A stretch of DNA of 64,000 nt, taken from the NCBI GenBank assembly GCA_002898215.1, contig BEIF01000001.1, positions 477,501 to 541,500 of the forward strand. Reading direction: 5' to 3'. The translations under genes were made by a program, and so were the position numbers. Source of the stretch: a bacterium HR29. Lineage in GTDB: Bacteria > Chloroflexota > Dehalococcoidia > Tepidiformales > Tepidiformaceae. The notes under the pieces were generated by a model that ran no database searches, was not told the origin of the DNA, and was given only the letters and a program-made list of their open reading frames with translations. This document shows, one piece after another, positions 4,473-61,021 of the stretch; position 1 is the stretch's first letter; every line of letters begins with the position of its first letter.

Positions 4473-4910
4473 CTACGCCTCGCCGACGCGCGCCAGGGCG
4501 AAGGAGATGACGCCTTCCGCGACGACCGCGCCGTCGACCGTCGCCCGCACGCTCCCCTTGCCGACCGGGCCGCGCGCCTTGAGGAGTTCGAACTCGAGCC
4601 GGAGCTGATCCCCCGGCCGGACAGGTTTACGGAAGCGAAACTCTTCGATGCCCGCGAAGAGAGGGAGCTCGTCGCTGGGGGGACGGTCGGCCAGGAGCGC
4701 CACGGCGGCCGTCTGGGCGAGGGCTTCGATGACGAGAACGCCCGGCATGATCGGTCGTCCGGGGAAGTGGCCCTGGAAGAACCATTCGTTGGCCGTGACG
4801 TTCTTGATAGCGACGGCGCGTTTCCCGGGCTCCAGCTCCACCACACGGTCGATGAGCAGGAACGGGTACCGGTGTGGGATGATGGCTTCGATCCGCTCGC
4901 TATCGAGCAC
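4473..4910 (-). CDS. fabZ: 3-hydroxyacyl-ACP dehydratase FabZ
   Basis: 145 residues, the normal length. FabZ dehydrates (3R)-hydroxyacyl-ACP in each cycle of type II fatty acid synthesis in the cytoplasm. The hot-dog fold motifs are complete: [13 protein letters not shown] at 11-23, [13 protein letters not shown] with catalytic H48, and EALAQ with catalytic E62. Start is ATG at 4910, 9 nt after the stop of the PHP gene, so it is co-transcribed with it. No other fab genes are adjacent, so this copy is isolated from the main fatty-acid cluster. Confidence 0.96.
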
Positions 4911-4919
4911 CGTGTGCTC

Positions 4920-5771
4920 CTAGACGAGGTAGGGCCGCCGGCAGCGGCCTTCGAGGAATTCTACAAACCGCCGCGCCCAGCCGTCAGGGAAGACGATGTC
5001 GCCCGGGGGCCGCTCTCCCGGGTTTCCCAATCCGTGGAAGTCGCTCCCCCCTGAGCGTTCCAGCCGAAGGCGTTCGGCCGCCGATTCCAATTCGGCAACC
5101 GTTTCCGCCGGATAGTCGCGGTAGTACACCTCCATGGCATCGACGCCGGCCGCGGCCACTTCTTCCAGCACGCCGAGCCAGCCCTCGCCGACGAAACACG
5201 GGTGGGCGGCGACGGCGACGCCTCCCCACTCGTGGATGCGGGCCACCGCCTCGGCCGGCGTGAGCTTCGGCCGGGGTATGTCCCCGGGCTTGCCGTCTCC
5301 CAGCCAGCGGTCGAATGCCTCCTGGACCGTGGCCACGTAGCCCCGCTCCAGCATGGCCCGCGCCACGTGAGGTCGGCCCACGCTCCCTTCGCCCGCGAGC
5401 TCGAAGAGCCGCTCGAGGTCGAGCTCGATCCCATACTCACGCAGCGTCTCCACGATGCGCCGTGCCCGTCCCTGGCGATGCTCGCGCTGCTCGGCGAGGA
5501 AAGCCAGCAAATCTGGGCGGTCGATCTCGATGCCGAGGGCGATGAGGTGCACATCGCGCGGGCCGAGGTCGGTGCTCAGCTCGATGCCCGGGACCAGCCG
5601 CAGGCCCCAGCTCCGGGCCGCCTCTGCGGCCTCCCTCAGGCCGTCCACGGTGTCGTGGTCCGTGAGGGCCACGACGCGAACGCCGTTCCGAGCGGCAGCA
5701 GCGACGACCTCGGCCGGCGTTCGCACGCCGTCGCTCGCCGTACTGTGGAGGTGGAAGTCGGCCAGCGCCAT
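4920..5771 (-). CDS. PHP-domain metal-dependent phosphoesterase (YciV/TrpH type)
   Basis: 283 residues. The PHP signature is complete: DFHLH at 5-9, LTDHDTVDG near 36-44, VPGIELS further on, AAHPCF near 200 and GGSDFHG near 247. These His/Asp residues bind a di- or tri-metal centre. The closest known relatives are RNase AM/YciV nucleases and 3',5'-nucleoside bisphosphate phosphatases, which act on RNA 5' ends or pAp. Its position directly after rny (8 nt gap) fits an RNA-turnover role, but substrate is inference. A second, unrelated PHP protein lies at 45.8 kb. Confidence 0.87.
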   Translation of the reverse strand: MALADFHLHSTASDGVRTPAEVVAAAARNGVRVVALTDHDTVDGLREAAEAARSWGLRLVPGIELSTDLGPRDVHLIALGIEIDRPDLLAFLAEQREHRQGRARRIVETLREYGIELDLERLFELAGEGSVGRPHVARAMLERGYVATVQEAFDRWLGDGKPGDIPRPKLTPAEAVARIHEWGGVAVAAHPCFVGEGWLGVLEEVAAAGVDAMEVYYRDYPAETVAELESAAERLRLERSGGSDFHGLGNPGERPPGDIVFPDGWARRFVEFLEGRCRRPYLV

Positions 5772-5779
5772 CGCTCCCG

Positions 5780-7309
5780 TCAGCGAGCGTATTCGGTGGC
5801 GCGGGTTTCGCGGACCACGGTGACCTTGATCTGGCCGGGATACTCCATGGTCTGCTCGATCTTCTGGGAGACGTCGCGAGCGATGCGCATCGCCTCCAGG
5901 TCGTCCACTTTGTCGGGCTTCACGATGATGCGCACCTCGCGGCCCGCCTGGATGGCGTATGCTTCTTCGACGCCCTTGTGTTCCCGGGCGATCTGCTCCA
6001 AGGTCTCGAGGCGCTTGATGTAAGCCTCCAGGGACTCGCGGCGCGCCCCTGGCCGGCCACCGGAGATGGCGTCGGCCATCATGACGATGATCGCTTCCAC
6101 CGTCGACGGCTCCACTTCCTCGTGGTGCGCCTCGATGCAGTGGACGACCGCCTCCTTCACGCGGTACCGGCGGGCAATGTCGGCACCGATGCGCGCGTGC
6201 GTCCCATCGACTTCGTGGTCCACCGCTTTGCCCAGGTCGTGGAGGAACCCGCCCGCGCGGGCAACCTCGACGTCCGCCCCGATCTCCCGGGCGATCATGG
6301 CCGCGATGTGGGCTGTCTCGATGGAGTGCCGGAGGACGTTCTGGCCGTAGCTGGTGCGATACCGCAGCCGGCCCATCAGCTTGAGGATCTCGGGGTGGAG
6401 ATTGAGCACGCCGGCCTCGACGGCAGCCGCCTCGGCGGCCTCCATCATCGCCGCTTCGACGTCTCGCTTCGCCCGGGCCACGGCCTCTTCGATGCGCGCG
6501 GGATGGATCCGTCCGTCGGCGATGAGCGACGTCAGCGCCACCCGGGCCACCTCGCGCCGGACGGGGTCGAACGCGCTCACCGTGATGGCGTCCGGCGTGT
6601 CGTCGATGATGACATCGACGCCGGTGGCTGCCTCGAGGGCGCGGATGTTCCGGCCCTCCCGACCGATGATCCGCCCCTTCATCTCCTCGCTGGGGATGGG
6701 TACCACGGAGACGGTCGTTTCGGCCGTCACCTCGGCGGCGTATCGCTGGATGGCGGTGGCGAGGATTTTCTTCGCCCGCATGGCGGCGGTGGCTTCCGCC
6801 TCCCGCTCGATCTCGCGGGCGCGGCGCGCAGCCTCCTCGCGGACCTCTTGTTCGATGGCCGCCAGAAGCTGAGCCCGCGCTTCGTCGCGGGTAAGGCCGC
6901 TCACGCGCTCGATCTCGGCGATCTGCCGTTGGCGGAGCTCCTGCGCCTCCGCGTGCAACCGCTGGATCTCCGCTTCGCGTTCCTTGAGGCGCTGCTCACG
7001 GGCTTCGAGCTGTTCTGCCTTCCGGTCCAGGTGCTCTTCCCGTTGCGCAAGCCGCTGCTCGAGGCGCTGGACCTCGGCCCGGCGCTCGCGCATCTCCGCT
7101 TCGAGCTTGTTTCGGAGTTCGAGGGTTTCCTCCTTCGCCTGGAGGAGGATTTCCTTCTGTTTTGCCTCGGCCTCAGCCAGGAGGCGGTTCGCCTCCTGTT
7201 CGGCCAGGATGACAGCGTTCGCCACGGCCCTGCGGCGGAGGGCATAGCCAATGCCGATGCCAACCGGTAATGCCACAAGGCCGACGATCAGGGCAACGAT
7301 CGTCGACAT
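5780..7309 (-). CDS. rny: Ribonuclease Y
   Basis: 509 residues, the usual 510-520. RNase Y is the membrane-anchored endoribonuclease that starts mRNA decay in bacteria lacking RNase E. Visible in order: one N-terminal membrane anchor (4-25), a long charged coiled coil (30-190), a KH domain with GRIIGREGRNIR at 212-223, and an HD domain with H357-D358 in FLHDLGK. The start is ATG at 7309 with a GGAGCTG ribosome site. A sigma-A-type promoter lies 74 nt upstream, so rny can be expressed independently of recA-recX. The PHP gene follows at 8 nt. Confidence 0.97.
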   Translation of the reverse strand: MSTIVALIVGLVALPVGIGIGYALRRRAVANAVILAEQEANRLLAEAEAKQKEILLQAKEETLELRNKLEAEMRERRAEVQRLEQRLAQREEHLDRKAEQLEAREQRLKEREAEIQRLHAEAQELRQRQIAEIERVSGLTRDEARAQLLAAIEQEVREEAARRAREIEREAEATAAMRAKKILATAIQRYAAEVTAETTVSVVPIPSEEMKGRIIGREGRNIRALEAATGVDVIIDDTPDAITVSAFDPVRREVARVALTSLIADGRIHPARIEEAVARAKRDVEAAMMEAAEAAAVEAGVLNLHPEILKLMGRLRYRTSYGQNVLRHSIETAHIAAMIAREIGADVEVARAGGFLHDLGKAVDHEVDGTHARIGADIARRYRVKEAVVHCIEAHHEEVEPSTVEAIIVMMADAISGGRPGARRESLEAYIKRLETLEQIAREHKGVEEAYAIQAGREVRIIVKPDKVDDLEAMRIARDVSQKIEQTMEYPGQIKVTVVRETRATEYAR

Positions 7310-7382
7310 GAATCAGCTCCAGGGTGTTCATTCCAGTCACGAGAACCACCGGAAGCACCTTCGGCGGCGACTTCCTACCGCC

Positions 7383-7412
7383 ATCGTACCGGCGGCGCGA
7401 GTGCGGGGTCAA
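7383..7412 (-). promoter_or_regulatory. Promoter for rny: TTGACC, 18 nt, TACGAT
   Basis: On the minus strand, -35 TTGACC (7407-7412) and -10 TACGAT (7383-7388) are separated by 18 nt. Five of six -35 bases match consensus. It lies in the recX-rny gap, giving an mRNA leader of about 70 nt that contains a short GGCGG/CCGCC inverted repeat. Confidence 0.7.
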
Positions 7413-7430
7413 AGATCGCCAAGGGGCGCA

Positions 7431-8129
7431 TCACGAGGAGTGATTTCCTTGCCCGTTTCGTGTTTCTTCGGGCGGCTCCTCCGAGGTGAGTTCCATCCAG
7501 GCGAGCCGCGCAGCGTGGCGGGCGGTCTCCCAATCGAAGCCGCGTCGGCGGAGGAACGCACCCACGTTGACGATGAACGCCTCTTCGCCAGCCCCTTCGA
7601 GCCGGCTGCCCCGCTGCCGGGCGAGCTCGAGGGCCGTCGGCAGATCGTCGACGTCGCGCGTAGCGCGCTCGACCGCGTCGGGGTCGATGCCACGCCCGAG
7701 AAGTTCGTACCGAAGCATGCGTCGGCTCCGGGGCGACGTGCGGCGTCGCTCCTCCACCCATGCGGCAGCGAACTTCTCGTCGTCGAGGAGGCCGGTCTCG
7801 CGCAGCCGCTCGACTTCGGCCGCCACGATATCGGCGGGGATGCCGCGCAGCTCGAGGCGCGTACGGAGCTCGCGCTCGCTGCGTGCCCGGTGCGAAAGGA
7901 GCCGCAGGGCCGCCTCGTGGGCCACCACGCGCCAGTTCGCCCGCTCGAGCTCGGCGATTCGGTCTTCGCTGATGGCGTCCCCTTCGTGCACGGGGCCTAC
8001 GCTCGCGAGGGCTTCCTCGTGCACCAGCAGCTCCCGACCGTCGCTGAGCACGATGAGCTGTTGGCGATGGCCCCCGGGACGGACAGCCACGACGATGAGA
8101 CGGTGACTGGGAGGTTCGTCCATAGGCAT
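7431..8129 (-). CDS. recX: Recombination regulator RecX
   Basis: 232 residues. RecX binds RecA filaments and limits RecA recombinase activity. The protein has the typical tandem three-helix repeats; the best is the stretch ALRLLSHRARSERELRTRL followed by LRETGLLDDEKFAAAWVEERRR (about 70-125). Start is ATG at 8129, 13 nt after the recA stop, so recA and recX form one unit, the standard arrangement. A second in-frame ATG two codons later is possible. The last 20 residues are acidic and polar and do not belong to the repeats. Confidence 0.93.
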   Translation of the reverse strand: MPMDEPPSHRLIVVAVRPGGHRQQLIVLSDGRELLVHEEALASVGPVHEGDAISEDRIAELERANWRVVAHEAALRLLSHRARSERELRTRLELRGIPADIVAAEVERLRETGLLDDEKFAAAWVEERRRTSPRSRRMLRYELLGRGIDPDAVERATRDVDDLPTALELARQRGSRLEGAGEEAFIVNVGAFLRRRGFDWETARHAARLAWMELTSEEPPEETRNGQGNHSS

Positions 8130-8142
8130 CCGTGGTGCTGGC

Positions 8143-9180
8143 TCACTCGCTGACGGTGGCGGCCGCGGGCACCGTTGCCGGCCTCGTCAGGCCCGCCTCC
8201 TGCCGGATGAGCGCTTCGATCTCCGCGGCCACGTCGGGGTTCTCCATCAGGAACTGTTTGGCGTTCTCGCGCCCTTGGCCGATGCGCAGGTCGCCGAAGC
8301 TGTAGAAGGCGCCGCTCTTCGTGATGACACCGTACTCCACGCCGAGGTCGACGATGTCGCCCACCCGGCTGATGCCTCGCGGCGGCTCGAACATGATGTC
8401 GAACTCCGCCGACTTGAACGGCGCCGCAACCTTGTTCTTCACGATCTTCGCCCGCACGCGGTTCCCCACCGTTTCGTTCCCTCGCTTGATCGAATCGACG
8501 CGGCGCAGCTCGATCCGAACGGAGGCGTAGAACTTCAGGGCCCGGCCGCCCGGGGTGACCTCAGGGTTGCCGAACACCACCCCGACCTTCTCTCGGAGCT
8601 GGTTGATGAAGACCACGGCCGTACTCGTGCGGGCGATGGCAGCAGTGAGCTTCCGCAACGCCTGCGACATGAGCCGGGCTTGCAGGCCCACGTGCGCGTC
8701 GCCCATCTCCCCTTCGATTTCGGCGCGCGGTACGAGGGCCGCCACCGAGTCGATGACGATAGCATCCACCGCGTTGGAGCGAACCAGCGCCTCGCAGATC
8801 TCCAGGGCCTGCTCACCTGTGTCCGGCTGGCTCACGAGCAGCTCGTCGATGTTCACGCCCAGGTCGCGTGCGTAACCGGGGTCGAGGGCGTGCTCCACGT
8901 CGATGTAGGCGGCTGTCCCCCCCAGCTTCTGGGCTTCGGCCATGATGTGCTGGGCGAGTGTGCTCTTCCCCGCCGATTCCGGCCCGTAGATCTCCGTGAT
9001 CCGGCCGCGTGGGATGCCGCCCACACCCAGGGCGATATCCAGGGCGAGGGAGCCGCTCGAGATGACGTCGACGGTGATGTTCCGCGCTTCCCCGAGACGC
9101 ATCACTGCCCCGCGGCCGAACTGCTTCTCGATCTGGCCGAGGGCAAGCTCCAAGGCCCGTCGCCGGTCTTCGCTTGTCAT
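8143..9180 (-). CDS. recA: Recombinase RecA
   Basis: 345 residues, the normal length. RecA forms the ssDNA filament for homologous recombination and triggers LexA self-cleavage in the SOS response. Walker [10 protein letters not shown] is at 66-74; other hallmarks are [22 protein letters not shown] and the ATP-cap region [15 protein letters not shown] at 9180 is chosen over ATG 9204 because it aligns with the family N-terminus and has GGGAAGG just upstream. The frame stays open to 9663, but that upstream part is antisense to DUF167. The gene heads a recA-recX unit, with an SOS-type box 76 bp upstream. Confidence 0.97.
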
Positions 9181-9212
9181 GTCCTTCCCTGCCCCAAGGG
9201 GCATCCGGCTAG

Positions 9213-9221
9213 ATACTAGCA
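9213..9221 (-). promoter_or_regulatory. Extended -10 for recA (TGCTAGTAT)
   Basis: TGC-TAGTAT on the minus strand is an extended -10 element 32 bp before the recA ATG, predicting a leader of roughly 25 nt. No good -35 is visible, which is usual when an extended -10 is present. Confidence 0.5.
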
Positions 9222-9255
9222 GGAAGCACCGTGCTGGCGAGAGTGTACCGAATGG

Positions 9256-9269
9256 CGAACATTTGTGCG
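9256..9269. promoter_or_regulatory. LexA/SOS box between recA and the DUF167 gene
   Basis: CGAACATTTGTGCG matches the Gram-positive/Chloroflexota-type SOS consensus CGAAC-N4-GTTCG with one mismatch in the right half. It lies 76 bp upstream of recA and 11 bp upstream of the divergent DUF167 start, so LexA bound here could repress both genes. LexA itself is not encoded in the window. Confidence 0.62.
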
Positions 9270-9280
9270 AGGGGCTTGCG

Positions 9281-9544
9281 ATGGTGCGCATCACGCTTTC
9301 CGTGACGCCCCGCGCCAGCAAGCCACGGGTCGTCTGGGATGGCGCGGTCCTCCGGGTGTGGGTCACCGCGCCGCCGGTCGACGGCGCCGCCAACTCCGCC
9401 GCGCTCGCCCTCATCGCCGAATCGCTCGAGGTGCCGCGCCGCGCCGTCCGGATCGCCGCCGGGGCGACGTCCCGGCGGAAGGTGCTCGAGATCGACGCCG
9501 ACCCGGGCGACCTCGCCCGGAAACTGGAGCGCCTCGGGCCATAG
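9281..9544 (+). CDS. DUF167 (YggU-type) family protein
   Basis: 87 residues. DUF167 proteins are small conserved alpha/beta proteins of unknown function. Family features here: [14 protein letters not shown] at the N-terminus, [22 protein letters not shown] (the conserved PPxxGxAN segment, about 29-50), and [11 protein letters not shown] near 61-71. Start is ATG at 9281 with GAGGGG upstream. It is divergent from recA and shares the intergenic SOS-like box, so damage regulation is possible. valS follows on the same strand about 100 nt later with its own promoter. Confidence 0.87.
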
Positions 9545-9576
9545 CCGAGGCGATCGATTGCAGGGCGCGCGTTTCG

Positions 9577-9596
9577 TACACTGGCTCGAACGAGCC
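9577..9596 (+). promoter_or_regulatory. -10 box and adjacent inverted repeat before valS
   Basis: TACACT (9577-9582) is a likely -10. Directly after it lies GGCTCG-AA-CGAGCC (9583-9596), 6-bp arms around 2 nt, covering the expected transcription start. It could be an operator or the first hairpin of a leader of about 50 nt. No T-box features are seen. Confidence 0.4.
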
Positions 9597-9640
9597 GCCT
9601 GTCGGCCGCTTCCAGCCCGTCCTGAGCCGAGGGATGAACC

Positions 9641-12346
9641 ATGGCGACGCTCCCGTCTCGCAAGCAGCTCCCACCTGCCTACGAGCCGGCCAGCGTAGAG
9701 GCCCGCATCTACCAACGATGGGAGCGGGGGGGCTACTTCAAGCCGAGGCTCGTGCCCGGTGCCGAGCCGTACTGCATCATCATGCCCCCGCCCAACGTCA
9801 CGGGTGAGCTGCACCTTGGCCACGGGCTCGAAGACGCCCTCACCGACGCGCTCGTCCGCTGGCACCGGATGCAGGGCGACGCGACCTTGTGGGTCCCCGG
9901 CGAGGACCATGCGGGCATCGCAACCCAGAACGTCATCGAGCGCGAGCTGGCGAAGGAGGGCCTGACCCGGCACGACATCGGACGGGAGGCGTTCCTCGAG
10001 CGCACCTGGGAGTGGGTGCGGCGCTACCGCGCTCGCATCGTCGAGCAGCACAAGCGCCTGGGGGCCAGTGCCGACTGGGACTACGACGTCTTCACCCTCG
10101 ACCCCCGCATCGTGCGGGCGGTGCGCACCACCTTCGTCAACCTCTACCGCGACGGCCTGATCTACCGCGGGCTGCGGATGATCAACTGGTGCCCGCGCTG
10201 CGAGACCGCTCTCAGCGACCTCGAGGTGGAGTACGAGCAGGAGCCCGCGAAGCTGTACTACGTTCGCTACCCCATCGTCGGCGAAGGCGGGATGCCCTTG
10301 CCGGACGCGATCGTCGTGGCCACCACCCGGCCGGAGACGATGGTGGCCGATACGGGCGTGGCCGTGAACCCGTCCGACCCCCGCTACGAGGAGCGAATCG
10401 GTCGCTGGGTGCTGCTCCCCCTCGTCGGCCGGGAGATCCCTGTCGTCGCCGACGAGGCCGTCGACCCCGAATTCGGTACCGGCGCCCTCAAAGTCACGCC
10501 GGGCCACGACCCGAACGACTGGGAGATCGGGCAACGGCACAGTCTCGAGGTCATCGTCGCCATCGACTTGAAGGGGCGAATGAACGACGAAGCCGGCCCC
10601 TACGCCGGCCTCTCGGTCGACGAAGCCCGCGAGGCCATCGTCCGCGACTTGGCCGACGAAGGTTTCCTGGAGCGAGTGGAGGACATCGTGCACAGCGTCG
10701 GCCGCTGCAGCCGCTGTCGGACCACGGTCGAGCCGCTGCCGAGCGAGCAGTGGTTCGTGGCGGTGAACAAGGAGTATGAGCCCGGGGTCAGCCTCGCCAG
10801 CGCCGCCGCGGAAGCCGTGCGCAGCGGACGCATCCGCATCGTGCCTCAACGCTTCGTGAAGGTGTACCTCAACTGGCTCGAGAACATCCGCGACTGGTGC
10901 ATCAGCCGGCAGCTCTGGTGGGGACACCAGATTCCCGTCTGGTACTGCGACTGCGGTGAGACCATCGTCCAGGTCGACGACCCCGACCGTTGCCCGAAGT
11001 GCGGGAGCGCGGAACTCCGCCAGGACCCCGACGTCCTCGATACCTGGTTCTCCTCCGCTCTCGCGCCGCACGCCGACCTCGGCTGGCCCGACGATACGGA
11101 AGAGCTGCGGATCTTCTACCCCACGAGCGACATGCAGATGGGGTACGACATCATGTTCTTTTGGTGCGCCCGAATGGTGATGTTCGGGCTGTACAACATG
11201 CGCCACCGCGGCCCCGATGGGGCCATCCCCTTCCGCACCGTGCTCTTCCACGGCCTCATCCGCGACGCGAAGGGTGAGAAGATGACAAAGTCGAAGGGCA
11301 ACGTCGTCGACCCGCTAGTGGCGGCGGCGAAATACGGTGCCGACGCCTTCCGATTCGGGTTGCTGGCCAACACCACCCTCGGCCAAGACCAGAAGTACAG
11401 CGACGAACGGCTGGAGGCAGCCCGGAACTTCGCCAACAAGCTGTGGAACAGCGCGCGGTTCGTCCTCATGCGTCTGGGGGAGCACCGCATTCGCCGCCCC
11501 CACCCGGCCGACCGCGAGACGTACGCCCTCGAAGACCGCTGGATCCTCTCCCGCCTCGAGGGGCTGATGGAAGACGTCGATTCCCTCTTCCGGGCCTACC
11601 AGGTGGGCGAAGTCGGCCGCCGTATCGAGGAGTTCCTCTGGAACGAGTTCTGCGACTGGTACATCGAGATGGCGAAGGTGCGCCTCGCCGCTGGCGACCA
11701 GAGGCCGCTCGACGTGTTGGGCCACGTCCTCGATTACTCCCTGCGCCTCCTCCACCCCATCATGCCCTTCGTCACCGAAGAGCTGTGGCAGCACCTCCGC
11801 GACCACCTGCCGAACGACGTCCCGGAGATGCTCATCGTGGCTTGGTATCCGAAGAGTGGAGCGAACTGGCGTGACCCCGCCGCTGAGGAAGCCATGGAGC
11901 ACGTCATCGCCGTGAACCGCGCCATCCGCAACGTCCGCGCTGAAAAGCGCCTCCCGGCGGGGGAGCGCCCGGCCGTCTTCCTCCGGGCGGGCGACTTCCG
12001 CGCCGCCCTCGAGGAGACGCTGGCGGCGACCGCTACCCTCTCCCGCTGCGTTCCGGAGCTGCTCCCGGCCGGTGCCGCCCTCCCGGAGGGCGAGTTCGCC
12101 TTCGACCGGGTGGCCGATACGGAGATCGCCGTTGCCCTGCCCGCGGTGGACCGCAGCGAGGAGCGCCGCCGGCTCGAACGAGAACTCGCCGAAGCGGAGG
12201 AGTACGTCCAGCGGCTGCGAGCCCAACTTGCGAACGAGCAGTTCGTCGCGAAGGCGCCCGCGCGGGTCGTCGAGGGCGTGCGTCGCAACCTGGAAGAGGC
12301 CGAGGAGCGGGCGGCCGGCCTCCGAGAACGGCTGGCGGCGCTCTAG
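9641..12346 (+). CDS. valS: Valine-tRNA ligase
   Basis: 901 residues, normal for ValRS. It charges tRNA-Val and edits mischarged threonine. Class I signatures: HLGH at 58-61 (in [14 protein letters not shown]) and KMTKS at 547-551 in place of KMSKS. The CP1 editing domain (about 190-350, with TTRPETM), a zinc-like pair of CxxC motifs near 443-452 (WYCDCGE, CPKCGS), the anticodon-binding helical domain and a C-terminal coiled coil (about 845-901) all follow. Start is ATG at 9641. The stop overlaps the convergent HAD gene by 4 bp, leaving no room for a terminator between them. Confidence 0.97.
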
Positions 12347-51938: not shown

Positions 51939-52925
51939 ATGGCGCGCGTCTTCGTTTCCCGAACGCTTCCCGGACGCGCCGTGGCGATGCTCGAGGAGGC
52001 GGGGCACACGGCCGAGGTGTGGCCTGGCGAGCTTCCCCCGCCGCGCGAGGTGCTCTCCGACGCCCTCGCCGATGCCGACGCGGCAATCGTGCTCCTCACC
52101 GATCGCATCGATGCGAGCTTGCTCGAGCGGGCAGCGAAGCTGCGGGTCGTCGCCAACGTTGCCGTGGGGTACGACAACATCGATGTGGACGCGGCCGCGG
52201 CCCGCGGAGTGTGGGTCACCAACACACCCGGCGTCCTGCACGAAACGACGGCCGACTTCACCTTCGCCCTGCTCCTCGCCGCCGCTCGGCGGGTGACCGT
52301 CAGTGAGCGCGCTGCTCGCGCTGGAGGTTGGAAGACGTGGTCGCCGACGGCGTTCCTCGGCCCAGATGTGCACGGTGCGGTGCTGGGCATCGTCGGCCTG
52401 GGGCAGATCGGGACGGCTGTTGCCCGCCGCGCCCGCGGCTTCGCCATGCGTACCCTCTACACGAGCCGCACGCGGAAGCCGGCGCTCGAGGAGGAGCTGG
52501 GCGTCGAGTGGCGGAGGTTGGACGACCTGCTCTCGGAGTCGGATTTCGTGTCCCTCCACGTCCCGTTGACGTCCGAGACGCGCGGGCTGATCGGCGCTGA
52601 ACAGCTCCGAAGAATGAAGCCGGGGGCGATCCTCGTGAACACCGCTCGGGGGCCCGTCGTCGACCACCGAGCACTGGTCGAAGCCCTGCGCGAGGGACAC
52701 CTCGGTGGTGCGGCGCTCGACGTCACCGACCCGGAACCCCTCCCGCTCGACCACCCTCTCTGGGCCTTCGAGAACGTAGTCATCACGCCGCATATCGCCT
52801 CGGCCAGCGAGCGGACGCGGGCGCGCATGGCGGAGATGGCGGCGGAGAACGTGATCGCGGTGCTCGCCGGGCGTGAGCCACCGAACCCTGTCGCGGGCCC
52901 TCGCGCCTCGCCGAAGCGCACATAA
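51939..52925 (+). CDS. D-2-hydroxyacid dehydrogenase (glyoxylate/hydroxypyruvate reductase type)
   Basis: 328 residues. NAD(P) motif [15 protein letters not shown] (about 149-163) and the catalytic trio Arg (NTARGPVVD), Glu ([13 protein letters not shown]) and His (ITPHIASAS) are intact. The closest group reduces glyoxylate and hydroxypyruvate to glycolate and D-glycerate. Start is ATG 51939. pyrE follows about 75 nt later on the same strand. larE lies nearby on the other strand, but nothing directly links the two to lactate racemisation. Confidence 0.9.
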
Positions 52926-53001: not shown

Positions 53002-53661
53002 TTGCCCCGAAGCAGCCGTCCCCCTGGGAACCTTTGGCTCGCCGAAGAGCTCTGGAACCTCGACGCTATCCAGTTCGGCGACTTCACGCTTGGCCGAACG
53101 GCGGTACATTCGCCCATCTACATCAACGTCCGCCGCCTCGTGAGCAACCCGAGGGCGCTGGCCCGCGTGGCCCGCATCATCCGCGAGGAGCTGGAAACGC
53201 TCCTCTCCATGCGCAACCCGCACGTGCGGCCGTTCAGCGTGGTCGCGGGCGTGCCCTTCGGCGGTCTCCACATCGCCACCGCCTTCGCCCTCGATGCGAA
53301 AGTGCCGATGATCTACATCCACCCCCCTGGCACGGACAAGGCGAACGTCATCGAGGGCGTGTACGTCCGTGGGCAGACGTGCCTCATCATCGACGACCTG
53401 ATCACCGGCGGCGGGAGTATCTTGCAGACCGCCGCGACGCTCAGCGAGGCAGGCCTGAACGTCTACGACGCTGTCACCCTCGTCGACCGGCAGGAGGGCG
53501 GGCGCCAGGCGTTGAAGGCAGCGGGGATCAACCTGATCTCCATCCTCACGCTGGAGCAGATCGCGAACTACCTCATGTCGGCGGGCTACATCGACGAATC
53601 GTGGTACCGGCGGACGATGGAGTACATCGAGGCCCGCAACCCTGGGCGGAACGGGGATTAG
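53002..53661 (+). CDS. pyrE: Orotate phosphoribosyltransferase
   Basis: 219 residues from TTG 53002, which has GGAGAA 8 nt upstream. OPRT joins orotate and PRPP to give OMP in pyrimidine synthesis. The PRPP-binding motif CLIIDDLITGGGSI and the substrate segment KANVIEGVY are conserved; SPIYINVRRL near the N-terminus also matches. A CATAAT box at 52939-52944 could be its -10. It stands apart from other pyr genes. The 3' end overlaps larE by 4 bp. An OPRT-like paralogue of different specificity cannot be fully excluded because the spacing before the PRPP loop is long. Confidence 0.87.
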   Translation: MPRSSRPPGNLWLAEELWNLDAIQFGDFTLGRTAVHSPIYINVRRLVSNPRALARVARIIREELETLLSMRNPHVRPFSVVAGVPFGGLHIATAFALDAKVPMIYIHPPGTDKANVIEGVYVRGQTCLIIDDLITGGGSILQTAATLSEAGLNVYDAVTLVDRQEGGRQALKAAGINLISILTLEQIANYLMSAGYIDESWYRRTMEYIEARNPGRNGD

Positions 53662-54449
53662 CCGCCCCGGCGATACCCCTCCAGGTCGAGCGTGACATAA
53701 CGAAAGCCGGCCCGCTTCACGGCGGCGACGGCTCGCTCGCGCACCTGGGGATCGGTAAGGAGGCGCAGCCCCTCGGCGTCGGTTTCGATGCGGGCGATCT
53801 CCCCATGGTGGCGCACGCGGAGCTGGCGCAGGCCGAGCGCGCGGAGCGCCGCTTCGGCGGCCTCGACTTCGGACAGCAGCTCCACCGTGACCGGCGTCCC
53901 CTGCGGGATGCGGCTGGCGAGGCAGGCCATCGCCGGCTTGTCCCATGTGGGGAGCCCCATCGCGCGGGAGAGCGCCCGAATTTCGGCCTTGGTCAGCCCC
54001 ACTTCGAGCAGGGGGCTACGGACACCGTGGAGCTCGGCAGCACGCCGTCCCGGCCTCCAGTCGTGGACGTCGTCGGCGTTCGTCCCATCGACGACGACGG
54101 CGCCTCCCGCGGCACGGGCGACCGCCCCCAGGACGGTGAAGAGCTCGTTCTTGCAGTGGAAGCAGCGGTCGCCGGCGTTCGCCGCGTAGGCTGGGTTCTC
54201 GAGCTCGTGCGTCTCGACCCACTCGTGGGCGATGCCGATGGCACGTGCCACCTCTTCGGCGTCGCGCCGCTCGGCTTGCGAAAGGGAGGGCGAAACCCCC
54301 GTGACAGCCTTCGCGTTCGGACCGAGCGCCTCGGCGGCCACAGCCGCGAGGAAGGATGAGTCGACGCCCCCGCTGAACGCCACGATGACGCGCCCGTACG
54401 ACCGCAGAAGCTCGACCAGACGGGACCGCTTCTCCTGGGCCGTGTTCAC
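53658..54449 (-). CDS. larE: Sulfur transferase LarE (nickel-pincer cofactor synthesis)
   Basis: 263 residues. LarE activates pyridinium-3,5-biscarboxylic acid mononucleotide with ATP and donates sulfur from its own cysteine to form the pincer ligand of the Ni cofactor of lactate racemase and related enzymes. PP-loop SGGVDSS is at 26-32 and the sacrificial Cys is C176 in MACLASRIPQG, the position known from Lactobacillus LarE. ATG 54449. larB, larC and larA are absent from the window, so the rest of the pathway must be elsewhere or the sulfur product differs. A MobB-FmdE fusion gene lies 29 nt upstream on the same strand. Confidence 0.92.
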   Translation of the reverse strand: MNTAQEKRSRLVELLRSYGRVIVAFSGGVDSSFLAAVAAEALGPNAKAVTGVSPSLSQAERRDAEEVARAIGIAHEWVETHELENPAYAANAGDRCFHCKNELFTVLGAVARAAGGAVVVDGTNADDVHDWRPGRRAAELHGVRSPLLEVGLTKAEIRALSRAMGLPTWDKPAMACLASRIPQGTPVTVELLSEVEAAEAALRALGLRQLRVRHHGEIARIETDAEGLRLLTDPQVRERAVAAVKRAGFRYVTLDLEGYRRGG

Positions 54450-54478
54450 GCCGCCATGCTAGCACGCGGGTCGGCCCC

Positions 54479-55498
54479 TCAACGCCCCGCGCACCCGCGA
54501 CAGACTGGTCCCGTCTCTCCTTCCAGATGGAGGCCGTCAGTGACCTCCTCGCCGCACGCTCGGCACTCCACCCTCCCACGCGGCTTTCCGGGCAGGTCCG
54601 CCTCCGTAAGGTCGAATGGCCAGGGCTGCAGCAGGAAGAGCTCCTCGGCGGGAAGCGAGGCGTAGGCGGCCCGCTGCGCTTCGAACGGCTCGACCCCAGG
54701 GAACGCGGACGACGCGACGGCGCGGAGCCCCGGTCGGGCGGCGACGCGGACGGCACGGCGAGTGGCGAGGTCGTAGAAGCGCGCAGCCAGCTTCCCCTGG
54801 TCGTCGATACGGAGGGTGCGACGGCCGGGACGGCAGCCCGTGACGGCGACGAAGGCGTCGAGCGCGCAGCGGCTCGTTTCGGCGACGAGGATGAGCCGCT
54901 TGTCGGCGTCCGGCAGGGCGATACCGAGCGCTCGGCCGCCTTCGAGGGCGAGCCTGGCACCGAGGACGATGCCAGGGCATCCGTGACCGCCGTGGAACGC
55001 ACGGGCAACCCCGATCGCGCGGGCGGCGGTCAGGTCCGGGGGCAAAAGCCCGCGAAGGTGCCCAACCAGGGCTTCCAGCTCCGAGGCTGCTGACGTGCCG
55101 TCCCACCTCGCAAGGACATCCTCCCCCTCGGCGGCGGGCGTGGCGCCGACCAGGACCGTCGGAACGGGCTCGGGCCGATGCGTCTCCAGCAGCACGAGGT
55201 CGGCGTACGCGGCGACGGAGTGGGCGAGGTCGGCGGCCTCGTCCGTTCCCGGCGGCAGGGTGAGCTGGCGCCGGTCGGGGGCACGCAGGAGCATGGCCGA
55301 CGGTGCTGCTTCCCAGATGCGACCCGAGGCCTTGTCGGGGAGGTCGAGGGGGTGATGGGTGCGCTTCACCCAGACCGTGCGCACGCCCGCCCGCTCGAGC
55401 GCCGGAATGAGCCGGGCGCACAGGCTCGTCTTCCCTGACTTGCTCGCGCCGCGGATGGCCACCACCGCTGGGAGGTCGAACACGACGCGCTCGCGCAT
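54479..55498 (-). CDS. MobB P-loop GTPase fused to an FmdE-like metal-binding domain
   Basis: 339 residues. Residues 10-145 are MobB-like: P-loop GASKSGKT (17-24), WVKRTHHPLDLPDKASGR and VLLETHRPEPVP, as in the GTP-binding helper of molybdenum-cofactor guanylylation. Residues 155-300 match FmdE of formylmethanofuran dehydrogenase: FHGGHGCPGIVLGARLAL with H172 and C174, then SRCALDAFVAVTGCRPG (C211, C222). A C-terminal ribbon has CRAC (312-315) and CRGC (333-336). ATG 55498 with TACCCT 6 nt before it. Likely a metal/cofactor assembly GTPase for a molybdo- or tungsto-enzyme. The frame extends to 56344, but that is antisense noise. Confidence 0.83.
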   Translation of the reverse strand: MRERVVFDLPAVVAIRGASKSGKTSLCARLIPALERAGVRTVWVKRTHHPLDLPDKASGRIWEAAPSAMLLRAPDRRQLTLPPGTDEAADLAHSVAAYADLVLLETHRPEPVPTVLVGATPAAEGEDVLARWDGTSAASELEALVGHLRGLLPPDLTAARAIGVARAFHGGHGCPGIVLGARLALEGGRALGIALPDADKRLILVAETSRCALDAFVAVTGCRPGRRTLRIDDQGKLAARFYDLATRRAVRVAARPGLRAVASSAFPGVEPFEAQRAAYASLPAEELFLLQPWPFDLTEADLPGKPRGRVECRACGEEVTDGLHLEGETGPVCRGCAGR

Positions 55499-57227: not shown

Positions 57228-57303
57228 TGGTGGAGCTGGGGGGATTCGAACCCCCTACCTTTTGACTGCCAGTCAAACGCTCTCCCAATTGAGCTACAGC
57301 CCC
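57228..57303 (-). tRNA. tRNA-Ala (anticodon GGC)
   Basis: 76 nt including an encoded CCA. All four arms fold. The anticodon loop reads CTGGCAG, so the anticodon is GGC (reads GCC/GCU). The acceptor stem has the G3-U70 wobble pair that defines alanine identity. D-loop AATTGGGA and T-loop TTCGAAT are standard. It has its own promoter immediately upstream and is flanked by a terminator hairpin on the other side. It is the only RNA gene in the window. Confidence 0.97.
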
Positions 57304-57357: not shown

Positions 57358-58320
57358 CTAGCGGCGGCCCCGGGGGTCGAGGGCGTCGCGCAACCCGTCC
57401 CCGAGGAACGTGAAGGACAACATGAGGATAGCGATGGTGGCCGCGGGAACGCTGATCATCCAAGGGTTCGAGCGGAAGTAGCTGTACCCCGCGAAGACGA
57501 GGGTGCCGAGGCTCGCCGTGGGAGGTTCCACCCCGAAGCCGATGAGCGCGAGTACCGCTTCGGCGTAGATGGCCAACGGAATGCCGAACGTCAGCACGAC
57601 GATGACCGGACCCAGGGTGTTGGGGAGCATGTGGACGAACACGATGCGCGGTGTCGAGGCTCCGAGGGCCCGCGCGGCCGTGACGAAATCGCTCGCTTTC
57701 AGCGACAGCATCTGTCCGCGCACGAGGCGCGCCGTCGTCACCCAGCTCACGAGACCGATGGCAAGGATGACTTGGAGGATCGTTCCCGGAAGGCCGGGGA
57801 TCTGCGGGTCGCCGTTGCCGATGATGGGCCAGGGGCGCTGGCTGAGGACGGCGCGCATTAGCACGATGGCGAGCAGGTCGGGGAAGGCGTAGGCCACGTC
57901 CACGAAGCGCATGATGAGGTTGTCGAGGAACCGGCCGCCTAGGGCTGCCGCGGCGCCGACCGCGATGCCGATGAATGCCACCAGGACCTGCGTGCCGAGA
58001 CCGATCCGGAGCGAAATGCGGACGCCCTCCCACACCCGCGCCCAGTTGTCTCGGCCGAGGTTATCGGTGCCGAGCCAGTGGGCGGCCGAAGGCCCCTGGT
58101 GGGCTTCCCGGACGGCTTGTGCCGAGGGCTCGTACCGCCCGACGGCGTCGACCGTCGCGGTCAACACGGAGAGCACCGCCATGGTGACCACGATGGCGAG
58201 ACCGACCATCGCGAGGCGGTTCCGCACGAGGCGGTCGAACGCCTGCCGCCATAGCCCCCGGTGCCGTACCGGGAGGCCGAACTCCTCGAACGCGGGCAAC
58301 GCGATCGGTTCGCTGGCCAC
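57358..58320 (-). CDS. Peptide-type ABC transporter permease (OppC/DppC)
   Basis: 320 residues. Six hydrophobic helices and the OppC N-terminal region (WRQAFDRLVRNRLAMVGLAIVV). The EAA loop that contacts the ATPase is visible as SDFVTAARALGASTPRIVFVHMLPN. The C-terminus FTFLGDGLRDALDPR is typical of DppC. It forms a heterodimer with the OppB-type permease encoded just upstream (3-nt gap). The final gene of a leftward binding-protein/permease cassette; ATPase genes (oppD/oppF) are not present and must be elsewhere. Confidence 0.93.
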   Translation of the reverse strand: MASEPIALPAFEEFGLPVRHRGLWRQAFDRLVRNRLAMVGLAIVVTMAVLSVLTATVDAVGRYEPSAQAVREAHQGPSAAHWLGTDNLGRDNWARVWEGVRISLRIGLGTQVLVAFIGIAVGAAAALGGRFLDNLIMRFVDVAYAFPDLLAIVLMRAVLSQRPWPIIGNGDPQIPGLPGTILQVILAIGLVSWVTTARLVRGQMLSLKASDFVTAARALGASTPRIVFVHMLPNTLGPVIVVLTFGIPLAIYAEAVLALIGFGVEPPTASLGTLVFAGYSYFRSNPWMISVPAATIAILMLSFTFLGDGLRDALDPRGRR

Positions 58321-58323
58321 GGG

Positions 58324-59241
58324 TCAGTACCGAATGCGGGGGTCGACGATCGCGTAGGAGATGTCGACCACAAGGTTCATGACGGCGATGGCCACGGCGA
58401 AGAGCAGCGTCGTTCCCATGATCATCCCGTAATCGCGGAGCTGGACCGCATCGACGAAGGCTGTACCGACGCCGCCGATAGCGTAGAACCGCTCGATGAT
58501 GAACGACCCGGTCAAGAGGCCGGCGAGGATAGGGCCGGCGATGGTGAGCACGGGGATGAGGGCGTTGCGCACGGCGTGGCGCATCACGACGCGGAACTCC
58601 GTGAGTCCCTTGGCGCGTGCTGTCCGGATGTAGTCCTGGTTCAGCACTTCGAGCATGGATGCGCGCGTCACGCGGGCGATCAGCGCGAGTGGCAACATCC
58701 CGAGGGAGACGATCGGCAGCACCATCTTCCGATAGTTTCCGAACTCCCACCCCAGAACGTCGAACCATCCGAGTTGGAGGGAGAAAAGCAGGACGAGGAA
58801 GACGGCGAGGACGAAGTTCGGGACGGAAGCCCCGATGGTCGCCAGCACGACGCTGAAGTAGTCCACCGCCGAGTTCTGACGGACGGCGGCTGTCACCCCG
58901 AGGGCGAGCCCTCCTACGAGGGCGAAGGAGAACGCACAGAGGCCGAGCTGCACCGACTTCGGGAGACGCTCGCGGATGATCGTCGTGACCGGCCGGTTCT
59001 GCGAGAACGACTGCCCGAGGTCGCCCGTCGCGAGCCCGCGCAGGAACAGGCCGTACTGCACGAGGATGGGCTTGTCGAGGTTGTACTTCCGCTCCAAGTT
59101 CGCCATGACCTGCGGGGGGAGCGGCTTCTCGCGGTCGAAGGGTCCCCCGGGGACCGCGTGCATGAGGAAGAAGGTGATGGTGGCGATGGCCCAGACGAGT
59201 GGTACGAAGGCCAAGATGCGCCGAACGAGGTAGGTGGTCAC
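58324..59241 (-). CDS. Peptide-type ABC transporter permease (OppB/DppB)
   Basis: 305 residues from GTG 59241, which has GGGAGCAGGAG upstream. Six helices with the OppB start YLVRRILAFVPLVWAIATITFFLMH and the loop QDYIRTARAKGLTEFRVVMRHAVRNAL. The C-terminus ISYAIVDPRIRY is also characteristic. The frame extends 24 codons upstream, but that part lies in the intergenic stem-loop. It follows the binding-protein gene by 94 nt, with the stem-loop between them. Confidence 0.93.
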   Translation of the reverse strand: MTTYLVRRILAFVPLVWAIATITFFLMHAVPGGPFDREKPLPPQVMANLERKYNLDKPILVQYGLFLRGLATGDLGQSFSQNRPVTTIIRERLPKSVQLGLCAFSFALVGGLALGVTAAVRQNSAVDYFSVVLATIGASVPNFVLAVFLVLLFSLQLGWFDVLGWEFGNYRKMVLPIVSLGMLPLALIARVTRASMLEVLNQDYIRTARAKGLTEFRVVMRHAVRNALIPVLTIAGPILAGLLTGSFIIERFYAIGGVGTAFVDAVQLRDYGMIMGTTLLFAVAIAVMNLVVDISYAIVDPRIRY

Positions 59242-59285
59242 GCGCTCCTGCTCCCGCGGGGCGTGGGTCGATGGAAGGGGCGGAC

Positions 59286-59315
59286 GAGTGGGGGAGCAGC
59301 ACGGCTCCCCCACTC
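59286..59315 (-). promoter_or_regulatory. Intergenic stem-loop between binding-protein and permease genes
   Basis: GAGTGGGGGAGC / GCTCCCCCACTC, perfect 12-bp stem with a 6-nt loop. No T-run follows. In this place such hairpins commonly stabilise the upstream binding-protein message or let only part of transcription continue, giving more binding protein than permease. Confidence 0.65.
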
Positions 59316-59335
59316 GCGGTCTTCGGAGCGGAGCG

Positions 59336-61021
59336 TTACTCGCTCAGCCACCAGAGCTCAGGCGCCCAGTCGCCGGCGAGGACGCGGTCCTGGGAAGTCG
59401 CGTTCTCGCGGACGCCCTTGAGACGTGGGTCGATGAGCACGTGGTTGAGCGAGTGGTACATGGGCGCCACGCCGCAGATGCGGGTGCTGATGAGCTCGTT
59501 CACCTTCTTGTACTGCTCGCGGCGCTCCTGGTCGTTCGTGTTGTACCGCGCCTTGGAGATGAGGTCGTCGATTTCGGGGTCGCTGCAGTTGTAGTTGTTC
59601 AGCGTCCCGCCTGTATCGAAGAGACCGATGATCCAGTTCTCCGGGTCGGGGTAATCCTGGTGCCAGCCGCCGGGGAAGAGCTCGAATTGCCCCTCGGTGA
59701 AGCGCTTCGAGCGGGTCGGGGCATCGACGATCTCGATGTTCACGTCGATGTTGAGGATCGTCTTGAACTGCTCCTTCAGGAATTCGGCCGTTGCCCGGGC
59801 GCCTGCGGAATCACGGATGAGGATGCTCAGGGTCGGGAAGCCCTGGCCGTTCGGGTAGCCGGCGGCGGCGAGCGCCTCCTTCGCCTTCTCGGGGTTGAAG
59901 CCGATCTGCTCCTCGAAAAGGTCGGTGGCGTTCGGGTCGAGGCCGAGCACTTCGGGCGGAACCCAGGTCGTCGTCGGAGTCACCGCGCCCTGGAGCACGT
60001 TCTCGGCCAGCGCCTTCCGGTCGATGGCGCGGGAGAGGGCGAGTCGCACGTTCAGGTTATCGAGCGGCTTCTTCTTCAGCTGCATCTCCAGGCCGATGGT
60101 CGTCGGCGTGACGTAGCTGAGGAGCTTGTCGGGGAACTCCTGCTGGAGCGCCTTCAAGTTCGTGGCGTCGGCCAGGGCCATGTGAAGCTCGCCCGCCCGG
60201 AAGGCGTTGTTCGACTGCACGTTGTCCTCGATGTAGCGGAAGGTGATCTTGTCGAGGTAGGCGGGCTGGCCGGCGTAGTTCGGGTTACGCGTGAAGACCA
60301 TCCGCTCCTTCGGCACGTACTCGGAGACGACGAACGGGCCGTTGAAGGCGAGCTTCGTCGGATCCTCCGGCCACGGCGTCGAGCCGTCGGGGACGATGTG
60401 GATGGGCACGGGCCACGTCATCCACATCGTGAGGATGGTGGTGAAGGTCGGCTGGGGCTGCTGGAGCTTGAATTCGATGGTGGTATCGTCGATGGCCCGC
60501 ACGCCCAGCTTCGCGCGCAGAGCGGCCTTTTCCGCTGCCGACTTGTCCGTCGCCGCGTAGTAATCGTCGCAGCCGACGATGTTGGAGAGGAGGTACTGGT
60601 ATTCACCAGCGTTGTCGGGGTTGCAGGTTCGCTCGATTCCGGCGACGAAATCTTCCGCCTTCAGGTCGTCGCCGTCGGACCACTTCAGGCCGGGCTTGAT
60701 CTTCACGGTGTAGGTCTTCCCGTCCGCCGAAATCTGCGGCATGTCGGCCGCCATCTCGGGCACGGGCTCGTTGTCCTTGTTCAGCTTGTAGAGACCGCGG
60801 AAGACGAACGTCTGGTGCCCGATGTCCTGCGCGAAGGACGAGAAATGCGGGTCGAACGACTGGAACTCGAGATACTGGACGACGATCTCGCCGCCCTGCC
60901 TCGGCTGCTCGGCCTCTCCGCCGGGGCCTCCGCCCTCCTCGTCGTCGCCGCAGGCGGCGGCGAGAACCACCGCCGCGAGGGCGAACAAGCCGAGGAGCGC
61001 ACGCCAATTGAATTTTTCCAT
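59336..61021 (-). CDS. Peptide-type ABC transporter substrate-binding lipoprotein (OppA family)
   Basis: 561 residues. Lipobox AAAC with C24 marks it as a lipoprotein; Glu/Asp/Gly-rich linker follows. The rest is a family 5 solute-binding protein: DPHFSSFAQDIGHQTFVFRGLY, KTYTVKIKPGLKWSDGDDLKAEDF and NVRLALSRAIDRKALAENVL. These bind oligopeptides or other substrates such as nickel complexes; specificity cannot be read. ATG 61021 has a very strong GGAGGAGGGAGGAAA site, and a TTGACA promoter lies upstream. First gene of the transporter cassette. Confidence 0.93.
   Translation of the reverse strand: MEKFNWRALLGLFALAAVVLAAACGDDEEGGGPGGEAEQPRQGGEIVVQYLEFQSFDPHFSSFAQDIGHQTFVFRGLYKLNKDNEPVPEMAADMPQISADGKTYTVKIKPGLKWSDGDDLKAEDFVAGIERTCNPDNAGEYQYLLSNIVGCDDYYAATDKSAAEKAALRAKLGVRAIDDTTIEFKLQQPQPTFTTILTMWMTWPVPIHIVPDGSTPWPEDPTKLAFNGPFVVSEYVPKERMVFTRNPNYAGQPAYLDKITFRYIEDNVQSNNAFRAGELHMALADATNLKALQQEFPDKLLSYVTPTTIGLEMQLKKKPLDNLNVRLALSRAIDRKALAENVLQGAVTPTTTWVPPEVLGLDPNATDLFEEQIGFNPEKAKEALAAAGYPNGQGFPTLSILIRDSAGARATAEFLKEQFKTILNIDVNIEIVDAPTRSKRFTEGQFELFPGGWHQDYPDPENWIIGLFDTGGTLNNYNCSDPEIDDLISKARYNTNDQERREQYKKVNELISTRICGVAPMYHSLNHVLIDPRLKGVRENATSQDRVLAGDWAPELWWLSE

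Follow-up and report, generated by a model that had tools for sequence, protein, structure and literature searches.

A MobB-FmdE-zinc-ribbon fusion encoded ahead of larE in a Tepidiformaceae genome has predicted nitrite oxidoreductase NxrA, not LarE, as its regular companion

What is a protein that joins a molybdenum-cofactor P-loop domain to an FmdE domain doing directly ahead of a gene for nickel-pincer cofactor synthesis? The question is raised by a 64,000-nucleotide stretch of the bacterium HR29 genome (G000:C1:477501-541500; hereafter, the window), in which the gene for a 339-amino-acid fusion of MobB, FmdE, and a four-Cys ribbon (54479..55498, minus strand, ATG start) is followed by the gene for LarE, the sulfur transferase of the nickel-pincer cofactor pathway (53658..54449, minus strand, 263 amino acids, GTG start). 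An initial reading of the letters alone, without database searches (the sequence-only reading), had proposed that the two proteins act together in assembling or inserting a metal cofactor. We surveyed 38 Tepidiformaceae genomes, in which the window's genus is represented by one genome (G000, 2.34 Mb, 97% complete). NxrA, predicted to be the catalytic subunit of a nitrite oxidoreductase (NXR), rather than LarE, is the regular companion of the fusion. In Tepidiformaceae and some related bacteria, the fusion is probably a maturation factor for the molybdenum cofactor that is dedicated to NXR, or to type II dimethyl sulfoxide (DMSO) reductases as a wider group.

The three-part architecture first read from the sequence proved to be real. 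Residues 12-117 (55148..55465, minus strand) match PF03205 MobB at 51.3 bits, against a Pfam cut-off of 26.6, and carry a Walker A motif, GASKSGKT, at residues 17-24 (55427..55450, minus strand). In the alignment of this region (A1), G22 and K23 occur in all 18 ungapped rows, and residue 24 is Thr in 17 and Ser in one. Because the N-terminal half falls below the TIGR00176 equivalog cut-off of NCBIfam (47.9 versus 76.2 bits), we class it, on sequence, as a divergent MobB. Residues 168-281 (54656..54997, minus strand) form the FmdE core domain, matching PF02663 at 84.5 bits against a cut-off of 22.9. Residue equivalence within this domain was taken from a phmmer alignment to 2glz, in which the fusion has one extra Gly between two His. 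All four His/His/Cys/Cys ligands of FmdE are present at the predicted metal site, as H169, H172, and C174 (54977..54994, minus strand) and the completing C211 (54866-54868, minus strand). They resemble the metal ligands of Ta1109, namely His16, His18, Cys20, and Cys61; a second motif in that protein consists of Asp, Gln, and Thr (PMC2954224). Conservation was gauged on a 32-row alignment (A2), from which L175 was dropped for a stop codon, L167 as the split G421 copy, and L180 for being short. H169, C174, C211, D214, and T220 are found in 32 of the 32 rows and H172 in 27. Of the dimer motif Asp/Gln/Thr, the window protein has D214 and T220; the Gln position is V217, and it is Gln in 17 of the 19 family rows. 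The ribbon is formed by C312, C315, C333, and C336 (54491..54565, minus strand), kept in all 19 aligned Tepidiformaceae sequences (18 genomes). By analogy it would be of the treble-clef type, being positioned as in the FmdE zinc finger (PMC2954224).

Structure prediction, which the sequence-only reading had proposed, returned a model with matches to both folds. The AlphaFold2 model, based on 32 sequences, has a mean predicted local distance difference test score (pLDDT) of 89.6 and a predicted template modeling score of 0.83. Foldseek gave 15 matches at E <= 0.001, all to FmdE (2gvi, 2glz, 3d00) or to MobB (1np6, 1p9n, 4nkr, 4oyh, 2f1r, 1xjc), including the MobB proteins of E. coli and B. subtilis. 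The three FmdE structures were among the six best matches, with an E value of 5.9e-11 for 2gvi. Given this pLDDT and the 47-54% identity of the other 18 aligned Tepidiformaceae sequences to the window protein, the fusion is not an artefact of a single assembly.

Across the family, the fusion occurs in 19 of the 38 genomes and NxrA, counted at an identity of at least 59%, in 20. NxrA is present in every fusion genome and is found without the fusion in G218 only (Fisher p = 1e-9). At the genus level, both are present in 12 of 18 and neither in 6 (p = 5e-5). When the set is limited to genomes with completeness of 90% or more and contamination of 5% or less, FmdE is present in 11 of 22 and NxrA in 12 of 22. 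These counts take the fusion as present in G421, where it is split in two frames, and in G412, where it is cut by a contig end. G419, which has a MobB half and a 43% identical alpha homologue, is counted for neither protein; its inclusion gives 20 and 21 of 38, with p = 6e-10. All 21 PF02663 matches and all above-cut-off PF03205 matches in the 38 genomes are the fusion, its copies, or MobB-only halves. Broken fusion copies, interrupted between frames or by a stop, were seen at L233:2971-3938 and L146:3527-4509, both on the plus strand (G421; third copy of G417); they are either sequencing errors or decaying genes.

General molybdenum use was considered as the correlate and rejected. MoeA is found in 35, PF02738 enzymes in 36, and PF00384 proteins in all 38 of the genomes; as MoeA and PF02738 are near-universal and the fusion occurs in half of the set, it does not follow molybdenum use at large. 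The suggested search for other molybdenum genes in the genome retrieved MoeA, two PF02738 enzymes, and four PF00384 matches in G000.

The association extends to gene order. In 11 genomes the fusion gene lies directly upstream of nxrA in the same orientation (L057, L058, L060, L061, L062, L064, L065, L066, L069, L070, and L071). At the seven of these loci where the contig is long enough, nxrA is followed by a gene for a small protein and then by genes for an iron-sulfur (FeS) beta subunit, a NarJ-type delta protein, and an EB_dh gamma subunit. In seven genomes the fusion is encoded away from nxrA (G000, G402, G404, G406, G421, G422, and G423), about 117 kb distant in G000 and on a different contig in the others. 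All seven have nxrA, and the unlinked fusion is still associated with NxrA when the 26 genomes in which no pair is linked are taken by themselves (p = 1e-5). The nxr locus retains its CRP-type neighbor, with no fusion between, in G402, G422, G423, and G218, and no fusion relic was found in the 1.3 kb ahead of nxrA in G000 (only matches with E above 0.03). G419, without an NxrA of at least 59% identity, keeps just the MobB half, beside CRP-type and DUF1786 genes. The nxrA of G000 likewise has a DUF1786 gene upstream, and several nxr loci include a CRP-type gene. The MobB half of G419 would be what remains of a fusion that decayed once its client was gone.

In relatives, the gene that follows the fusion encodes a PF00384 protein of about 1150 amino acids. 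The G000 protein scores 1689 bits over 1141 residues against subunit A of Kuenenia NXR (7b04), with 195 bits for the next best enzyme (4ydd) and 140 bits for NarG (3ir5); for the G350 protein, the corresponding scores are 1505.8 and 166 bits. By sequence, the partner is therefore predicted to be NxrA of a periplasmic-type NXR, and not a NarG- or PcrA-type alpha subunit. A twin-arginine stretch (MALSRRSFLK) opens the G000 protein, and most of the relatives' proteins examined also start with such a stretch. Its gene heads an nxrA-(small gene)-nxrB-delta-gamma cluster of the Kuenenia-like periplasmic type (L138, G000:C1:403500-423400, positions 4904-11585, minus strand). The best NCBIfam models for this cluster are those for the DMSO_red_II alpha, beta, chaperone, and gamma proteins, and only gamma exceeds its cut-off (170.6 versus 169.85 bits). 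A second NXR-like alpha, about 40-43% identical and with its own beta, delta, and gamma, was observed at L234, L235, and L232 (G410, G350, and G419). It accompanies the NxrA of at least 59% identity in G410 and G350 and is present in its stead in G419.

Beyond the family, we sampled 400 Chloroflexota genomes, in each of which no more than the top-ranked candidates were scored (five at most for the fusion, two for NxrA). Fourteen genomes outside the family carry NxrA-type genes, whose identity over the matched part is 58-60% in six and 41-44% in eight. Among the matches listed, one spanning both domains of the fusion was found in G000 and G350 only. FmdE-type matches, sorted by hand from those listed, are more frequent in genomes with NxrA (7 of 14) than in the other out-of-family genomes (61 of 383; p = 0.004); we give this enrichment little weight, as none lies in an nxr stretch and the genomes are related. 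In G047, from another Chloroflexota family, a MobB-only gene directly follows an nxr-like operon (L211:9766-10269, plus strand), and an FmdE gene lies on another contig. L165 contains a distant homologue of the fusion (best segment 38% identical) that is absent from the hits of the 38 genomes. There, genes for the fusion, an EB_dh gamma subunit, and a NarJ-type delta protein overlap end to start (L165:8031-10434, plus strand), in a cluster with four type II DMSO-reductase alpha genes whose products are only about 25% identical to NxrA.

Since a P-loop-FmdE-ribbon protein shares an operon with a molybdoenzyme of the twin-arginine translocation (Tat) type, a dedicated factor for cofactor assembly or delivery fits the domains, conserved residues, operon position in relatives, and co-occurrence. 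MobB binds guanosine triphosphate (GTP) and aids the formation of molybdopterin guanine dinucleotide (MGD). The cytoplasmic MobB-type P-loop domain of the fusion would bind GTP or MGD and power the building or passing on of the cofactor. Relatives of the FmdE domain with solved structures are dimers; the domain, whose His/His/Cys/Cys site would lie in a long cleft, may hold the cofactor or a metal, or may dock the apo-enzyme, and the four-Cys ribbon could provide a protein contact. The fusion would act on the twin-arginine NxrA alongside the NarJ/TorD-type chaperone of the same operon and before Tat export, helping to assemble or deliver Mo-bis-MGD to NxrA. In Nitrospina, a TorD-like chaperone has been proposed to insert the molybdenum cofactor into NxrA at that stage (PMC3578206). 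FmdE genes are linked to, or lie in operons of, molybdenum or tungsten formylmethanofuran dehydrogenase (PMC2954224); this enzyme is active without FmdE (PMC7886697), as an accessory role would predict. We tentatively entertain a bolder version, in which the fusion would be a single-protein, NXR-specific loading machine: an FmdE platform timed by a GTPase would assemble or check Mo-bis-MGD (or molybdenum versus tungsten) at the His/His/Cys/Cys site and hand it to NarJ-held NxrA.

Several observations weigh against a maturation factor dedicated to NXR. G218, 98% complete in one contig, has an uninterrupted nxrA with no match to the fusion, MobB, or FmdE, so the fusion is not strictly needed. 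None of the 14 out-of-family NxrA-type loci includes the fusion, though at three of them (G113, G179, and G373) the contig has no upstream side and at G285 it has about 0.6 kb; given this absence and the two-domain matches listed only for G000 and G350, a universal NXR factor was rejected. The 38 genomes are related, and the p values therefore overstate independence. In G408 (L073), the gene upstream of nxrA encodes a MobB half only, and the full fusion is on another contig, some 5.5 kb from type II DMSO-reductase genes. PF00384 matches are also more numerous in fusion genomes (3-19, median 8) than in the others (2-6, median 3), which confounds NXR specificity with DMSO-reductase content. This richness, the setting of L165, and the arrangement in G408 point to a possibly wider clientele of type II DMSO reductases, with NXR as its usual member here. 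A fusion serving these enzymes at large, NXR being the commonest client in this family, is a possibility that we take seriously without favoring it; NXR is the direct operon neighbor in 11 genomes, and G419 has six PF00384 matches and no intact fusion. That the fusion is instead the cells' general MobB for all bis-MGD enzymes, riding with nxr by lineage history, seems unlikely. The family has no other above-cut-off MobB besides MobB-only halves, as that explanation would have it, yet 19 of the 38 genomes lack any above-cut-off MobB (including G412, whose gene is cut) in a set with MoeA in 35 and PF00384 in 38, and presence follows NxrA within genera g226 and, G218 excepted, g2. It is quite unlikely that the FmdE-ribbon part, instead of serving maturation, senses a metal or cofactor and regulates the nxr operon. 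For zinc-finger FmdE members, roles in regulating transcription, contacting proteins, binding RNA, or sensing metals have been suggested (PMC2954224), and several loci have a CRP-type regulator gene next to nxrA or the fusion; that CRP protein already supplies a regulator, however, the FmdE-ribbon part is joined to a MobB-type P-loop domain, and a Pfam search found no DNA-binding family in the fusion protein.

A functional pairing of the fusion with LarE, as the sequence-only reading had envisaged, now appears very improbable, and LarE was rejected as a partner. The adjacency itself is confirmed. LarE matches TIGR00268 at 314.9 bits (cut-off 150) and lies downstream on the same strand, after a gap of 29 nucleotides (54450-54478); both proteins come from cofactor pathways, and, with one genome for the window's genus, loss of a link within the genus cannot be judged. 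Nonetheless, LarE was seen at no other fusion locus in the family (loci with 1.5-kb flanks where the contig allows, and 20 regions of 4.4-19.5 kb, some flanks being cut by contig ends). The co-occurrence analysis that had been suggested gave no association, LarE being present in 7 of 19 fusion genomes and 4 of 19 others (p = 0.48; one of the four is a G419 fragment below the cut-off). Nor is the fusion associated with LarC (9 of 19 versus 6 of 19, p = 0.51), which is missing from 10 of the 19 fusion genomes; LarE and LarC do co-occur, with LarC in all 11 LarE genomes. Literature searches retrieved nothing on topic for FmdE together with LarE. The earlier statement that larB and larC are absent holds at most for the window, as both are on contig 3 of G000: LarC at G000:C3:91312-92421, with LarB adjoining (NF033503, 284.6 bits, cut-off 175). 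The LarE beside the fusion is the genome's only match over the family cut-off and is thus probably the lar system's own rather than a spare; the case that would have told against the pairing, larB and larC with a larE of their own, therefore holds only partly. What survives of the proposed metal-cofactor step is a cofactor-assembly role for the fusion. The partnership with LarE does not, given the lack of shared loci and of co-occurrence, the larB and larC genes elsewhere, and NxrA as the regular companion.

The surroundings of LarE bear on how the adjacency arose. An orotate-phosphoribosyltransferase-like (OPRT) gene (53002..53661, plus strand) is convergent with larE, with a 4-nucleotide overlap, and is preceded by a gene for a D-2-hydroxyacid dehydrogenase (51939..52925, plus strand) that is a neighbor of LarE in several relatives; both starts are from our own gene caller. 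OPRT neighbors LarE in relatives too, and the convergent overlap is kept in L110. In L113, from a relative without the fusion, the major facilitator superfamily (minus), 2-hydroxyacid dehydrogenase (plus), OPRT (plus), and LarE (minus) genes keep the order and strand of the window, with one gene between OPRT and LarE. A short-chain dehydrogenase/reductase (SDR) gene precedes LarE in six of eight LarE loci of relatives, and two further small genes are present in five of these six. The sixth, L115, starts at a contig end; L111 and L114 show no SDR gene before LarE. In the window, the fusion sits where these genes precede LarE in relatives. The LarE neighborhood thus seems, from gene order, older than the fusion's presence there. 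Relocation of the fusion gene to a position ahead of a larE locus that relatives have without it would be the likeliest history in the window genome. The adjacency would then be positional, and LarE is probably a chance neighbor, functionally unrelated. Elsewhere in the window, an oligopeptide-type ATP-binding cassette (ABC) transporter is encoded at 57358-61021 (minus strand) by genes for two permeases and one binding protein; no ATPase gene was noticed directly beside it, the neighboring open reading frames being only partly annotated. A tRNA-Ala (GGC) found with ARAGORN (57228-57303, minus strand) lies between hydrolase and transporter genes.

If the fusion is a maturation factor, it bears on two matters. 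The role of FmdE was left open in the 2010 structure paper (PMC2954224), and the fusion suggests a possible function for the domain; were the loading machine outlined above correct, FmdE generally, methanogens included, would be a cofactor-insertion module for bis-MGD enzymes. For NXR, a key nitrate-forming enzyme, the literature found credits only a TorD-like chaperone with insertion of Mo-bis-MGD (PMC3578206). As the fusion goes with NxrA even where the genes are apart, it is a candidate second factor for NXR maturation. A periplasmic-type NXR is also indicated in Tepidiformaceae. Other kinds of Chloroflexota are known to oxidize nitrite or to bear NXR/NAR (PMC3578206; PMC13212565); a literature search for nxr or nitrite oxidation in Tepidiforma found none, subscription journals being mostly outside its reach.

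Both domains of the fusion are known, and the MobB-FmdE architecture is matched by no NCBIfam model beyond the MobB half. Other FmdE fusions, to PF00994 and PF01980, have been described, and the accessible part of that account does not name MobB-FmdE (PMC2954224). Literature on FmdE with MobB was not found, the one apparent MobB hit being an author's name, again with subscription journals mostly outside reach; the architecture may already be listed in protein databases. In Pseudomonas putida, "fmdE" (PMC10308882) names a formate-dehydrogenase gene and was not taken as relevant. PRK14495, "MobB/unknown domain fusion," was rejected as the same architecture, its model matching residues 13-118 only. 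The other MobB fusions of NCBIfam (MobA-MobB, MobB-MoeA, MobB-FeS, and MobB-unknown domain) likewise join MobB to another, mostly cofactor-related, domain, but on the window protein the matches of their models are confined to residues 10-145, its MobB half. With MobB itself (PF03205; E. coli 1np6, B. subtilis 4nkr), the fusion shares the P-loop fold, a K-x-T-H-H motif, and the structural match of its N-terminal half; it differs in scoring below the TIGR00176 cut-off, in being joined to FmdE, and in reading ETHR where E. coli MobB has EGFK. With zinc-finger FmdE proteins (PF02663; 2gvi Ta1109, 3d00 SYN_00638), it has in common the core fold, the His/His/Cys/Cys set, the Asp and Thr of the dimer motif, and a C-terminal four-Cys finger, whereas the extra Gly between two His (HGGHGC), the MobB domain, and the tie to NXR instead of formylmethanofuran dehydrogenase set it apart. 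The NarJ/TorD-type chaperones of type II DMSO reductases (PF02613) are encoded in the same operon but share no sequence family with the fusion, which would act beside or upstream of them.

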